NCBI RefSeq assembly: GCF_025397915.1
Contig: NZ_JALIDZ010000002.1
Coordinates: 186,001-250,000 of the forward strand
Reading direction: 5' to 3'
From: Microbaculum marinisediminis
GTDB lineage: Bacteria; Pseudomonadota; Alphaproteobacteria; Rhizobiales; Tepidamorphaceae
Length of the DNA: 64,000 nt
In this document: positions 17,390 to 22,263 of the stretch, in pieces
Layout: every line of letters begins with the position of its first letter
Numbering within the stretch: position 1 is the stretch's first letter
Translations under genes and position numbers: made by a program
Notes under the pieces: model-generated
Told to the model about the DNA's origin: nothing
What the model saw: only the letters and a program-made list of their open reading frames with translations
Databases searched by the model: none

Positions 17390-18727
17390 ATGAACCGACC
17401 TTCTAGCCCCCCGGACCACAAGCGCGCGGTAGCGCTGCCGCCGAGCGCCCTGCAGGCCCTTGGCAAAGGTACGCCCACGCTGCGGCCTCGCCGCGGCGAT
17501 ATCCGCAAGGTCATGCTCGTCTACGGCACGCGACCCGAGGCCATCAAGATGGCGCCGCTGGTCAAGGCCGTGCAGGCGTCCGGAAACCTCTCCGCCTGCA
17601 TCGCGGTCACCGGCCAGCATCGCGCGATGCTCGATCAGATCAACGATCTGTTCGGCATCAACCCGGCCATCGACCTCGACATCATTATGGAGCGGCAGCG
17701 GCTCGAGGACATCACGAGCCGGGCGCTGAACGGCGTGTCCGATGCGATCGTCGCCGAATCGCCCGATGCGGTGCTGGTGCAAGGCGATACGACCACGTGT
17801 TTCGCCGCGGCGCTGGCCGCGTTCTACAACAAGGTGCCGGTCTTCCACCTTGAAGCCGGCCTGCGGACCGGCGATGCCTACAATCCGTTCCCGGAAGAGA
17901 TCAACCGGCGGCTGACGACGAACCTGGCGAATGTCCATCTCGCCCCGACGGCCACCGCGAAGGCGAATCTCGTCGCCGACGGCGTGCCCGCCGAAAGCAT
18001 CTACATCACCGGCAACACCGTGATCGACGCTCTGCTCGACGTGGTTTCGCGCAAGCTGCCGATCGAGAACGCGGACCTGACCCCGGTCATCGGGAAGCGC
18101 AGCGTTCTGGTCACGGCGCATCGGCGCGAATCCTGGGGCGAGCCGATGGCGCGAATCGCCAGATCGGTGCGGCAGCTGGCCGGAAAGTTCCCGGACACCG
18201 TCTTCCTGCTTCCCGCCCACCTCAATCCCGTCGTTCGCGACGTCCTGCTGCCACCGCTTCAGGGCCTCAGGAACGTGGTGGTGACCTCGCCGCTCGGCTA
18301 CAGCGACTTCGCGCTGGCGCTGAACAACGCCTCGGTGGTTCTGACCGACAGCGGCGGCGTGCAGGAGGAGGCGCCGAGCCTGGGCAAGCCGGTCCTGGTG
18401 ATGCGCGACACGACGGAACGGCCGGAAGCCGTCTCCGCCGGAACGGTCCGCCTCGTCGGGACCAACGAAAGGGCCATCGTCGACGGCGTTTCCGAGCTAT
18501 TGACGGACGGGGGCGCCCACGGCGCCATGGCCAGGGCGGTCAATCCGTATGGAGACGGCCGGGCGGCACGACGCTGCGTCGCGGCGATCGAGCACTTCTT
18601 CGGATTTGGCGGACGGCCCCGGGACTTCACGTCCCATATCGACCCGCGCCCCGCCTCCAGGCCGTCGGTTCCGAACACCACGCGGGTCGTGGACGATCAC
18701 CCCGCCGCAGCGCATATGGCGCAGTGA
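17390..18727 (+). CDS. wecB: Non-hydrolysing UDP-N-acetylglucosamine 2-epimerase
   Basis: The 445-aa enzyme interconverts UDP-GlcNAc and UDP-ManNAc in the cytoplasm. Hallmarks are VMLVYGTRPEAIKMAPL, VTGQHRAMLDQ, VLVQGDTTTCFAAALAAF, FHLEAGLRTGD, PEEINRRLT, LVTAHRRESWGEP and LTDSGGVQEEAPSLGKPVLVMR. An unusual basic leader of about 38 residues precedes the core. The normal C-terminus would be near VAAI (residue 400). Here the frame runs on for 45 more residues that read antisense through a duplicated fragment of the wecC 3' end. A WbpI-like role on UDP-GlcNAc3NAcA is an alternative, given the wbp-like genes downstream. Confidence 0.92.
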   Translation: MNRPSSPPDHKRAVALPPSALQALGKGTPTLRPRRGDIRKVMLVYGTRPEAIKMAPLVKAVQASGNLSACIAVTGQHRAMLDQINDLFGINPAIDLDIIMERQRLEDITSRALNGVSDAIVAESPDAVLVQGDTTTCFAAALAAFYNKVPVFHLEAGLRTGDAYNPFPEEINRRLTTNLANVHLAPTATAKANLVADGVPAESIYITGNTVIDALLDVVSRKLPIENADLTPVIGKRSVLVTAHRRESWGEPMARIARSVRQLAGKFPDTVFLLPAHLNPVVRDVLLPPLQGLRNVVVTSPLGYSDFALALNNASVVLTDSGGVQEEAPSLGKPVLVMRDTTERPEAVSAGTVRLVGTNERAIVDGVSELLTDGGAHGAMARAVNPYGDGRAARRCVAAIEHFFGFGGRPRDFTSHIDPRPASRPSVPNTTRVVDDHPAAAHMAQ

Positions 18728-18838: not shown

Positions 18839-19112
18839 ACGGCAATCGCGGTCGCGGCGATCTAGCCGCTTTCGGCTTCGGCGGACGGCCCGGGGAACTT
18901 CACGTCCCGATTCCAGGCTCAGCCCGCATCGAAGGCCGTCAGTTCCAGACACCACGCGTGTCGTAGACGACCTTCCCGCCGAAGCGCGTATGGCGCAGTG
19001 ACCTGAACTTCTCGTGCTCGACGAGCAGCACGACGATATCGGCGCGCTCGACGGCGTCGGCGGCCGGCTCCAGTCGCACGTTCGACATCTCCCCCAACCG
19101 GCCGGGTATCGA
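18839..19112. repeat. Right copy of the tandem duplication (fossil wecB 3' end plus wecC 3' end)
   Basis: This copy carries the intact minus-strand end of wecC and, to its left, a plus-strand remnant of a wecB end. That remnant reads VAAI followed directly by TAG (GTCGCGGCGATCTAG, 18851-18865). The corresponding position in the left copy is GAG, which lets WecB read on. The interval 18728-18938 between the two stops therefore holds only gene fossils. Confidence 0.7.
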
Positions 19113-20198
19113 GCCGTTGATGAAGGGGTCGGAGATCAGCACCGTGACCTCCGGCCGGGCCGAGGCGATCAGTTCCACGACCTCGATCGCCGGGCTTTCG
19201 CGGAAGTCGTCGACATCGGCCTTGAAGCTCAGCCCCAGGCAGGAGATGACCGGTTCGCGGAACCGCTCCGAACTCGCGATCACGGCATTGGCGACATGGT
19301 GCGGCTTGTGGTCGTTCACTTCGCGCGCGGCCCGCAGGAGCTTTGTGACGCCGGGTGCGGCGCCGATGATGAACCATGGATCGACGGGAATGCAGTGTCC
19401 GCCCACGCCCGGCCCCGGGCTGAGGATGTTTACGCGCGGATGCCTGTTAGCGAGGCGGATTACCTCCCACACGTCCAGGTGCAGTTCCTCGCAGATCATC
19501 GACAGCTCGTTCGCGAAGGCGATGTTCACGTCGCGATACGCGTTCTCGATCAGCTTCGACATTTCCGCCGTCGCCGCGTCGGTGAGCAGGATCTCGCCCT
19601 GCGCGAACACACGGTAGAGCTCGGCCGCGCGCTCCGAACAGCGGCTGGTCATGCCGCCGATCACGCGATCGTTGGTGACGATCTCGATCATGATCCGGCC
19701 CGGCAGCACGCGCTCGGGGCAATGCGCGACGTGGACCTCGGTCATGCCGTCGTGGTTGTGCGGCATCTTGAGGTCGGGACGTAGCGCGCCGATCCAGCGG
19801 CTGACCTTTTCCGTCGTGCCCGGCGGCGACGTCGATTCCAGGATCACGATCGCGCCCGGCTGGATGCGCGGCGCGATCTGTTCGGCGGCCGCCTTCACGT
19901 AGGTCAGATCGGCCGAGCGGTCGGGATTGAAGGGCGTGGGAACGGCGATGATGTAGGCTTCGGCCTCCGGCGTCTCCGTGGTCGCGGTCAGCCGGCCCAA
20001 CGCCACGGCGCCGCTGACGCCCACCGCCAGGTCCGGTTCGACGAACGGAACCCGTCCCTGCGACACCGCTTCGATGGTCTTCGGATTCACATCGACGCCA
20101 ATGACGTCGACGCCCCGTGTGGCGAGGGCGACGGCGGTGGGAAGTCCCACATAGCCCAACCCCAGAACGGCTACGCGGCCGTTGAACGCTTTACCCAT
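18939..20198 (-). CDS. wecC: UDP-N-acetyl-D-mannosamine dehydrogenase
   Basis: The 419-aa NAD-dependent enzyme oxidises UDP-ManNAc to UDP-ManNAcA. The N-terminal Rossmann motif is VAVLGLGYVGLPTAVALA. The WecC-type blocks are GRVPFVEPDL, ESTSPPGTTE and ENAYRDVNIAFANELS, then RHPRVNILSPGPGVGGHCIP with the catalytic Cys, then VDPWFI. The C-terminal UDP-binding domain ends FGGKVVYDTRGVWN. It is preceded by the WecG-fusion gene on the same strand with an 8-bp overlap and converges on wecB. The GPGVGGHC context fits WecC better than WbpA or Ugd, although activity on UDP-GlcNAc cannot be excluded. Confidence 0.93.
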   Translation of the reverse strand: MGKAFNGRVAVLGLGYVGLPTAVALATRGVDVIGVDVNPKTIEAVSQGRVPFVEPDLAVGVSGAVALGRLTATTETPEAEAYIIAVPTPFNPDRSADLTYVKAAAEQIAPRIQPGAIVILESTSPPGTTEKVSRWIGALRPDLKMPHNHDGMTEVHVAHCPERVLPGRIMIEIVTNDRVIGGMTSRCSERAAELYRVFAQGEILLTDAATAEMSKLIENAYRDVNIAFANELSMICEELHLDVWEVIRLANRHPRVNILSPGPGVGGHCIPVDPWFIIGAAPGVTKLLRAAREVNDHKPHHVANAVIASSERFREPVISCLGLSFKADVDDFRESPAIEVVELIASARPEVTVLISDPFINGSIPGRLGEMSNVRLEPAADAVERADIVVLLVEHEKFRSLRHTRFGGKVVYDTRGVWN

Positions 20199-22263
20199 GG
20201 TGCAGTTCCGGTCGAGAGGTACGCGTCTCGGATGTCGCCGCGGAAGACAGGATCCGCGGCGGATAGTGGGTGCTCGGAGGCGGCGCGGTGCGACGACCGG
20301 CCATTTCCTTCGCCGTCAGCAGGATGAACGCGGTGTTGGTATGGAGATACCGGCGCCACATCCGCCGCGGCTCTTGCGCCAGACGGTAGGCCCATTCCAT
20401 GCCCATTTTCTGCCAGCTCGCAGGCGCGCGCCTGGTCTTGCCGGCGAGCACATCGAACGAACCGCCGACGCCGTGCATGACCGGGACGGCCAATGCGTCC
20501 CGGTAGGTAGCGAGGAACGTCTCCTTTTTCGGAGACGGCATGCCGAGAAACAGCATGTCCGGCTGGCAATCCCGGATCTCCGCGGCGATCGCGTCGGCCT
20601 CGTGATCCTCGAAATAGCCGTGTCGCCGGCCCACGATCCGCAGGCCCGGGAAGCGGCGGCCCAACTGGAACTCCAGATCCCGCAGGACGTCGGCTTTGGC
20701 CCCGAACAGGAAGACCGAGTGATTTCCCTTGTGGGCGACATGGAGCAGGCGCTCGAAGATGTCGATCCCGGTCACCCGCTCGGGAACCGGCGCGCGCAAA
20801 AGGCGGCTCGCCCAGACGACCGACTGGCCGTCGGCGAGCAGGACATCGCATTTCTGGAGCGCACCGTGCAGGGCCGCGTCCTTGCGGACGTTGACGACCT
20901 TGGAGGCGTTGACGACGCCCAGCAACAGCGGCTGCCGCGTTCTAACGGCCTGCCGGCACTGATCGACGACATCGTCGATCCGCAGCGCGTGGACGCGCAG
21001 GCCGAACAGCGTGGACACGTTGTCGGGCGCCTCGGGAAGCGGCGCGGAACCGACGGCGGCATGTTCGACCGGCCGCCGCAGCCCGGCCATCACGCCGTCG
21101 GCGCACCAGGCATAGAGCAGCCAGCCGAGCTCATACGGGCGGCACTCGTAATCGATCCGATTGGCCGGAAACAGGGCATCCACGGCGGGAATGCGCAGGC
21201 CGGGCGCGGTGGCCGTGGTGACGGAGGCGATGCTCCGCACGGCCTTCTTGGGCTCCCGGCGCGCGACCTTGCGCCAGATCATATGGGCATCTTCGCTGAC
21301 CAGTTGCGCGGAGGTCTCGGGATGCCGGTCGAGCCACTCGACCCCCTTGATGATCGCGTCGAGATAGTCCGTGCCGCCGGCTTCCATCAGGTCCAGAAGC
21401 CCCATCGGCGCCATCCCGTGCTGATGGACGCTGTAGACGGGATAGCGCTCGACGACGTCGCCGTTGCGCACGTCGTAGTGCCAGATCCACTGCCCCTCGC
21501 GGCCCTGGCAGGCGACGATACGGGCAGCGCAGGCGTTTGCCGCGGCCAGGGCCCGTTCATCGCCGAACGCCGCCGCGTAGCGGGCGAGCGCTTGGATCGG
21601 ATAGATCTGATCGGCGAAACACCCCACGTGCCGCCTCAGGCGACCGATCGCCGTGTCCGGCAGCTTGTGCGGAAACAGGCCGGCCAGCGACTGCCCCGCC
21701 CGCAGGCGCTTGGCCGCCGCCTTCGCAAGCCCGGCCGTGTCGCGGTAGGCAAGACCCGCGACCGCCGCCGTCAGGGCCCAGGCGCACACCACCGTGTCGA
21801 CCGGGACATCCGAGCCGATGGCGCGTTCCAGTCGCTCGAAGAGTACCGCATCGGCACGGCCGGCGACCTCGGCCACAGCCCAGGCCCCCAGCGCGACGCT
21901 TCCCAGATCCTCGGACGTCTCCGCCCGCTTGGCGCTGTGTATCGCGAGGTCTGCGGCACTGAAGCCTTCCAACACACGCGTCTGCGTCGCCCGGTCGCGC
22001 TGGCCGAGCCCAAGGGCCACGATCAGCGCGTAGCGGAGGCTGTCCCCCTCGGCGCGCACCTCGGGAATCACGCCCGGGATGCGTCGGCCGGTATGGGCGA
22101 ATCCCTCATGGCTCCGAAGCTTGGGGAGGCCGGCTTCCGACAGTTCGATGAATTGCTCGATGCGCGCACGTACCTCCGGAGACGCCGCCCCGGCAAGCTC
22201 AAGGCGGCTGCGCCGCGAAACGTCGCGCATCGGAATACTGTGCTGGGTCGTGAATGATTGCAT
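20191..22263 (-). CDS. Fusion: alpha-helical toroid-like domain plus WecG/TagA/CpsF glycosyltransferase (GT26)
   Basis: The product is 690 aa. The C-terminal part (about residues 417-640) is a full GT26 domain: LGVVNASKVVNVRKDAAL, CDVLLADGQSVVWAS with the family Asp at about 478, ERVTGIDIFERLL, FLGMPSPKKE and VMHGVGGSFDVLAGK. GT26 enzymes transfer ManNAc or ManNAcA to lipid-linked GlcNAc. The N-terminal about 400 residues are helical hairpins (SLRYALIVALGLGQ, DTVVCAWALTAAVAG, QGREGQWIWHYDVRNGD, VYSVHQHGMAPMGLLDL), resembling alpha/alpha toroids of the six-hairpin or terpenoid-cyclase folds. No family is assigned to that half. ATG 22263 is preferred over TTG 22296. It lies directly upstream of wecC. 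Confidence 0.85.
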   Translation of the reverse strand: MQSFTTQHSIPMRDVSRRSRLELAGAASPEVRARIEQFIELSEAGLPKLRSHEGFAHTGRRIPGVIPEVRAEGDSLRYALIVALGLGQRDRATQTRVLEGFSAADLAIHSAKRAETSEDLGSVALGAWAVAEVAGRADAVLFERLERAIGSDVPVDTVVCAWALTAAVAGLAYRDTAGLAKAAAKRLRAGQSLAGLFPHKLPDTAIGRLRRHVGCFADQIYPIQALARYAAAFGDERALAAANACAARIVACQGREGQWIWHYDVRNGDVVERYPVYSVHQHGMAPMGLLDLMEAGGTDYLDAIIKGVEWLDRHPETSAQLVSEDAHMIWRKVARREPKKAVRSIASVTTATAPGLRIPAVDALFPANRIDYECRPYELGWLLYAWCADGVMAGLRRPVEHAAVGSAPLPEAPDNVSTLFGLRVHALRIDDVVDQCRQAVRTRQPLLLGVVNASKVVNVRKDAALHGALQKCDVLLADGQSVVWASRLLRAPVPERVTGIDIFERLLHVAHKGNHSVFLFGAKADVLRDLEFQLGRRFPGLRIVGRRHGYFEDHEADAIAAEIRDCQPDMLFLGMPSPKKETFLATYRDALAVPVMHGVGGSFDVLAGKTRRAPASWQKMGMEWAYRLAQEPRRMWRRYLHTNTAFILLTAKEMAGRRTAPPPSTHYPPRILSSAATSETRTSRPELHHG

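Follow-up and report, generated by a model that had tools for sequence, protein, structure and literature searches.

The window analysed here, a stretch of 64,000 nucleotides from Microbaculum marinisediminis (contig NZ_JALIDZ010000002.1, positions 186,001 to 250,000), carries on its reverse strand a gene in which an N-terminal domain with a predicted (alpha/alpha)6 toroid fold and a C-terminal glycosyltransferase domain of family GT26 (WecG/TagA/CpsF) are encoded by one reading frame. The best explanation is that this gene belongs to an exopolysaccharide cluster of the Wzx/Wzy type and that its product is truly a two-domain protein. GT26 enzymes catalyze an early, often committing step in the formation of many surface polysaccharides and are generally regarded as working alone. 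The toroid fold is known; the toroid family and its fusion to GT26 appear to be undescribed, and a literature search confined to open-licence papers, which is weak evidence, retrieved no paper on either. We give an even chance to the view that the toroid is an uncharacterised enzyme which acts together with GT26 at a single early step in building the polysaccharide, on the same lipid-linked intermediate. An unnamed, conserved toroid family linked with a single GT26 clade in several phyla points to a reaction or binding step that is missing there, and the natural fusion together with a defined set of conserved residues is ready material for testing this step.

The GT26 part of the fused protein was recognised by PF03808 (E 2.2e-61, 207 bits versus a cut-off of 27.4) and by NCBIfam, and crystal structures of TagA align to residues 419-640 (E 6.9e-42). 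Residues 1-412 match no Pfam model at E up to 1 and no NCBIfam model above cut-off, and for the toroid family, represented by 28 members, no Pfam or NCBIfam model scored above cut-off. A preliminary description, made from the sequence alone, had reported a GT26 domain joined in one frame to an unassigned N-terminal domain, which is borne out by the 690-residue frame; its remark on the usual size (about 250 residues) and stand-alone nature of GT26 enzymes applies fairly to most of them, although open-frame lengths vary. The genome contains one copy of the fused gene. The same architecture recurs in another genome of the genus (locus L003), with 74% identity in the toroid and 82% in the GT26 domain, and the fusion is therefore not an assembly error of one genome. 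Between the two fused genes the linker (15/29 identical positions) is less conserved than either the toroid (288/369) or the GT26 domain (190/233). In a third genome of the genus, which is 86% complete, neither toroid nor GT26 was found. The search for further proteins of this architecture thus yielded one more fusion in the same genus, and elsewhere the toroid is a separate protein. Whether two proteins might be made from the region has a divided answer: the window has a single frame, but most relatives have separate neighbouring genes, and weak internal start codons are located at residues 391, 392, and 416, so that a separate GT26 product may, judged from these codons, be initiated near residues 391-416. 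By eye, neither a signal peptide nor a membrane helix is apparent at the toroid N-terminus. An open frame of 691 residues (20182-22257, forward strand) lies antisense to the entire fused gene and is probably a by-product of high G+C codon usage.

The fold of the N-terminal domain was predicted from two members of the family. An AlphaFold2 model of window residues 1-412, computed with a 28-row alignment, is an (alpha/alpha)6 toroid with a predicted local distance difference test score (pLDDT) of 89.6 and a predicted template modelling score of 0.90. Among the families listed in VIA-align comparisons, the AGE superfamily (N-acylglucosamine 2-epimerase, cellobiose 2-epimerase, YihS) was the top match of this model (Z 25.6, 3.4 Å over 320 residues, 11% identity), followed by GH76 (Z 23.8), GH88 (22.3), and terpene cyclase (22.1) toroids. 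The Foldseek matches listed for it are toroid-fold proteins, namely the GH88 hydrolase 3wiw as best (E 1.8e-5), a squalene-hopene-cyclase-like protein (2.1e-5), YihS/AGE (3.2e-5), GH47, and GH76. The second model, of the distant member L024 (25-29% identical to window-type members), reached a pLDDT of 91.8; YihS was its first Foldseek match (E 2.2e-6) and cellobiose 2-epimerase its first VIA-align match (Z 26.9, 3.5 Å over 324 residues), most AGE superfamily rows scoring Z 24.7-26.9. The alpha/alpha toroid suggested in the preliminary description was thus confirmed, at the level of prediction, in two independent models, and the nearest fold is AGE-like, 2-3 Z units ahead of other toroids. In the open-licence literature no paper was found on YPO2471, a structural neighbour, or on the mechanism of YihS.

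Conservation was counted over 35 toroid members, with L090 excluded because its toroid is cut by the locus edge. H280, Q281, R331, Y377, E378, W259, W261, W310, and W381 are present in 35/35 members including the window copy, and D264, which is near-invariant, also occurs in the latter. The aromatic and histidine-rich block noticed earlier, WIWHYD (residues 259-264) and YPVYSVHQHG (274-283), falls among the most conserved positions of the family; in the AlphaFold2 model an inner helix begins at residue 278, inside YPVYSVHQHGMAPM (274-287), the longer motif around the latter. Both fused copies retain the conserved toroid residues. The near-invariant set of Trp, His, Asp, Arg, and Glu residues suggests that the toroid is an active enzyme, and from the sequences these residues may form a working pocket with a chemistry different from that of AGE. 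Among the stand-alone toroids from loci lacking WecC (L020-L028), most end in a tail such as GHII, GHVV, RHIV, or AHLV directly before the stop codon.

The coupling of the toroid to GT26 extends well beyond the genus. When GTDB genomes were scanned with residues 1-415, 25 loci were obtained, which come from Rhizobiales, several Actinobacteria, Acidobacteria, Nitrospirae, Planctomycetes, Gammaproteobacteria, and Myxococcota; none of them has a toroid continuous with GT26, and the toroids are typically 370-450 residues long, longer frames probably reflecting over-extended starts. The toroid was found in 2/8 genomes of the window's family, in 3/385 of a sample of the class, and in 6/249 of the family to which the Microbacterium locus L012 belongs. 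It also matches ten plasmid records of Rhizobiaceae, of which two are annotated as 'hypothetical protein' and eight have no annotated feature there. Among 33 distinct toroid loci, the window excluded, a GT26 gene follows within 1.5 kb downstream in 25, as a separate gene in 24 and fused in one (L003). Stop and start codons overlap by 4 nucleotides (ATGA or GTGA) in 14 of the 24 separate pairs, the frame arithmetic for L008, L011, L013, and L014 having been done by hand. The order toroid then GT26 recurs in Actinobacteria, Rhizobiales, Gammaproteobacteria, and Planctomycetes, and toroid and GT26 distances are correlated (Spearman 0.89 for 26 pairs and 0.66 for 19 WecC-linked pairs; 0/2000 permutations as high).

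The GT26 partners belong to one clade, which is marked by a lysine at the position of TagA Gln167. This lysine occurs in 28/28 toroid-adjacent GT26 sequences of the tree. In a set of 69 GT26 loci, some of which were already-known toroid loci, a toroid is located within 1.5 kb in 7/18 Lys types and in 0/51 Gln, Glu, or Ser types. The tree comprised 91 rows, with column 167 removed and with the duplicates L060, L061, and L100-L102, the '_alone' copies, and the partial L066 left out; on it, Lys167 requires one change and toroid adjacency three, all inside the Lys167 clade. The branch below this clade, with a value of 84 in the Shimodaira-Hasegawa-like approximate likelihood ratio test (SH-aLRT), is not strongly supported. 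When 40 genomes were searched again, a toroid was found only in the known carrier G913 and nowhere in the 39 others, which had been sampled for GT26 without a nearby toroid (9 of Lys type, 30 with other GT26). The idea that Lys167 is caused by the toroid was rejected, as the clade includes toroid-free members; Lys167 is a marker rather than a rule. In two genomes without toroid, a heparinase II/III-like gene (PF07940; L076:3-1325 and L081:2250-3494) is located immediately upstream of the Lys167 GT26 gene. Such proteins of polysaccharide clusters occupy a position like that of the toroid and are perhaps a functional substitute for it, but they belong to different Pfam families (PF07940, PF16889), and there are only these two cases.

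The GT26 domain of the window resembles TagA of T. italicus (PDB 7mpk/5wb4) and WecG of E. coli in being a full domain with the catalytic Asp and the Arg residues of the C-terminal appendage, and it has WecB and WecC neighbours, as in enterobacterial common antigen synthesis. It differs from both in its location behind a toroid, in the Val at the position of TagA Thr37, and in the Lys at that of Gln167. Residues matching TagA Asp65, Arg83, Glu168, Arg214, Arg221, and Arg224 are kept, the last three as Arg627, Arg634, and Arg637. Of the residues linked to TagA activity, including Asp65 as catalytic base, in the available excerpt of the TagA study (PMC6493773), all are retained except for those at the Thr37 and Gln167 positions. 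Neither equivalog cut-off of NCBIfam is reached, with 141.8 bits versus 350 for TarA (N-acetylmannosamine, ManNAc, subtype) and 140.1 versus 323 for WecG NF002980 (N-acetylmannosaminuronic acid, ManNAcA, subtype). At the donor-contacting Thr37 position, Val is found in 19 and Ala in 2 of 21 WecC-linked, toroid-adjacent GT26 sequences (with only a partial WecC within the fetched stretch of L003, L037, L039, L068, and L090), E. coli WecG has Ala, and all seven toroid-adjacent sequences without a WecC match in the fetched locus have Thr. Val or Ala in combination with WecC agrees with ManNAcA as the donor in the loci that have WecC. Since an apparent change of donor leaves the toroid in place, a specificity of the toroid for ManNAcA is unlikely.

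From these data we propose the following mechanism. The GT26 half is an intact, cytoplasmic, membrane-peripheral enzyme which, because of its WecC partner and the Val at the Thr37 position, most likely transfers ManNAcA onto an undecaprenyl-diphosphate-linked first sugar. The toroid half is soluble, AGE-like in predicted fold, and equipped with nearly invariant pocket-type residues of its own; in most carriers it is a separate protein translated just before GT26, and this genus has fused the two. Both would act on the same lipid-linked sugar intermediate at the cytoplasmic face. The toroid would be a carbohydrate-active enzyme with the acceptor or the newly formed disaccharide as its ligand, which it alters in one respect or hands on. 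His280, Asp264, and Glu378 are candidate acid/base residues and Arg331 is a candidate anion contact. As the toroid stays across the apparent switch between uronate and non-uronate donors, it more likely recognises the acceptor or a common part of the product than the carboxylate. The suggestion in the preliminary description that the acceptor or the product is modified or recognised by the N-terminal half is thus consistent with gene coupling and fusion, but the form of it that was specific to ManNAcA is weakened, both by the seven of 28 partners without WecC and by three toroid-carrying genomes, of 16 searched, that have no GT26. There is a real chance that the toroid is a new enzyme. Tentatively, and as a more specific proposal, it might found an enzyme family which edits a polyprenyl-diphosphate-linked di- or oligosaccharide on the cytoplasmic side, in complex with the Lys167 GT26 clade and by a reaction unlike those of AGE, GH88, GH76, and terpene cyclases. 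If so, the fused protein would be a bifunctional transferase and glycolipid-editing enzyme.

Several observations weigh against an enzyme acting with GT26. Catalysis by the toroid has conservation as its one basis, 8/33 toroid loci have no nearby GT26, and ten Lys167 GT26 rows of the tree lack a toroid within 1.5 kb. Among the 16 genomes searched for GT26 at E 1e-8, the toroid carriers G489, G492, and G496 gave no match, and the carriers G488 and G494 have only a Gln167-type GT26 far from the toroid, which indicates that the function of the toroid is not strictly GT26-dependent. The correlated toroid and GT26 distances may reflect joint inheritance of one operon. In G402 a Lys-type GT26 is about 7.4 kb away from the toroid, and in G743 a partial one lies on a contig different from the toroid locus. 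In L018 and L023, which have no adjacent GT26, the toroid adjoins a GT2 glycosyltransferase, and in L018 it also neighbours an asparagine-synthase-like gene and a DUF354 gene. Probably, polysaccharide assembly makes general use of the reaction of the toroid, GT26 being its commonest but not its sole partner. Asparagine-synthase-like genes close to GT26-distant toroids were seen in L018 (10316-12217, by Pfam) and in L019 (3955-5826, by eye), the latter also with an exosortase-like frame (by eye).

Alternatively, the toroid could be a non-catalytic binding or scaffold domain which keeps hold of the acceptor on its polyprenyl carrier or tethers GT26 to the membrane or to further glycosyltransferases of the cluster. 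We consider this possible though doubtful: in its favour, the fusion and the 4-nucleotide overlaps imply a fixed stoichiometry, aromatic and Arg residues might bind glycans without chemistry, and there are the GT2 neighbours just mentioned, but the invariant His, Gln, Arg, and Glu and the near-invariant Asp exceed the needs of a plain scaffold, and GT26 enzymes such as TagA function without a toroid according to the available excerpt of the study (PMC6493773).

It is unlikely that the toroid is an enzyme specific for uronates (C5-epimerase, lyase, or unsaturated-uronyl hydrolase) with the ManNAcA residue as its target. WecC adjoins the fused gene in the window, the best Foldseek match of the window model is a GH88 hydrolase, and the heparinase II/III-like genes described above precede two toroid-free Lys167 GT26 genes; nevertheless, the partners which have no WecC match and keep Thr at position 37 show that the presence of the toroid does not hinge on a uronate donor, for which reason uronate chemistry was downgraded. 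GH88/GH105 unsaturated uronyl hydrolases and GH76 mannanases share the toroid fold (Z about 21.5-23.8), but PF07470 (GH88/GH105) matched 0/28 toroid members; in an attempted GH88 profile comparison, a PF07470 sequence was obtained from only 1/115 genomes. GH76 enzymes have an adjacent pair of catalytic Asp residues, and no conserved Asp-Asp column pair was seen in the 35 toroids, the structural position of the GH76 pair being unmapped. Class II terpene and squalene-hopene cyclases carry a DxDD motif; it is absent from window residues 1-412, which contain a single QxxxGxW at 253-259, and TIGR03463 was matched weakly by 3/28 members (best E 4.9e-5).

A further reading, in which the toroid would be a diverged sugar 2-epimerase or aldose-ketose isomerase of the AGE type and would have a free sugar such as ManNAc or N-acetylglucosamine as substrate, is quite improbable. 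The (alpha/alpha)6 barrel common to both is the nearest fold in both models, and the profile of the family matched N-acylglucosamine 2-epimerase among PDB sequences (E 4.4e-4), but identity is 8-12% and PF07221 (AGE) matched 0/28 members at E up to 1. In the accessible part of the published account, catalysis in the AGE superfamily depends on two essential histidines, His247 and His377 of CsCE, besides a third, His188 (PMC5726027). The invariant H280 of the toroid may lie near the expected site of the first, in a weak profile alignment of ambiguous register, whereas the second and third are missing. In the 35 toroids no His column following residue 282 is conserved. An hhalign comparison with an AGE profile, built from 15 of 16 fetched AGE loci (L053, which has no long central frame, was excluded), reached a probability of at most 42% and left several registers in competition, as a repeat fold would lead one to expect. 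As an AGE enzyme the toroid was rejected despite the strongest fold match, on the grounds of PF07221 and the catalytic His residues.

Very improbable, finally, is mere operon hitchhiking with a neutral stop-codon loss devoid of functional meaning: the 4-nucleotide overlaps would let one mutation fuse the genes and the fusion is limited to one genus, but the gene order recurs across four groups, always with the Lys167 clade, and both fused copies retain the conserved toroid residues.

The proposed enzyme acting with GT26 is encoded in a cluster for which Pfam indicates GT4, GT2, WecB, and WecC proteins and, slightly below cut-off (27.8 versus 31.7 bits), a protein of the O-antigen ligase type; Wzz-, CpsD-, Wza-, sugar-transferase-, and Wzx-like proteins were recognised by eye. 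The positions of the fused gene, its parts, and its neighbours are compiled in Table 1.

Table 1 Features of the fused gene and adjacent genes in the window (UDP, uridine diphosphate; GlcNAc, N-acetylglucosamine; counts refer to 35 toroid members)
Feature	Position	Strand	Basis or conservation
Fused gene, toroid (N-terminal) and GT26 (C-terminal), 690 residues	20191..22263	-	Single frame, ATG start
Predicted (alpha/alpha)6 toroid domain, residues ~20-395	21079..22206	-	AlphaFold2 model; VIA-align range 22-393
Linker joining toroid and GT26, residues 389-417	21013..21099	-	Comparison of two fused genes
GT26 (WecG/TagA/CpsF) domain, residues 419-640	20344..21009	-	PF03808, PDB 7mpk
Asp478 = TagA catalytic base Asp65	20830..20832	-	Alignment to TagA
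Val450 = TagA Thr37 (donor contact)	20914..20916	-	Alignment to TagA
Lys580 = TagA Gln167; marks toroid-linked GT26 clade	20524..20526	-	Alignment, tree
Motif F216-A-D-Q-I-Y221	21601..21618	-	F, Y 35/35; Q 34/35; D 31/35
Motif GQWIWHYD, residues 257-264	21472..21495	-	G257, W259, W261 35/35; D264 34/35
Motif YPVYSVHQHGMAPM, residues 274-287	21403..21444	-	V279, H280, Q281, M284, A285, P286 35/35
Trp330-Arg331	21271..21276	-	R331 35/35; W330 32/35
Motif RPYELGW, residues 375-381	21121..21141	-	Y377, E378, W381 35/35; R375 34/35
wecC (UDP-ManNAc dehydrogenase)	18939..20198	-	Start overlaps GT26 stop by 8 nucleotides
wecB (UDP-GlcNAc 2-epimerase)	17390..18727	+	Pfam

The cluster also encodes a Hint-domain protein (PF13403; 28065-28955, reverse strand), and a Pararhizobium cluster is similar in this respect (L056:6622-7449). 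Between 23031 and 27921 of the window, a hexapeptide acyltransferase (Pfam) is followed by Gfo/Idh oxidoreductase-like, two DegT aminotransferase-like, and SDR-like frames (by eye), which, from their resemblance to the Wlb/Wbp enzymes, we take to be likely a diacetamido-sugar uronate pathway.

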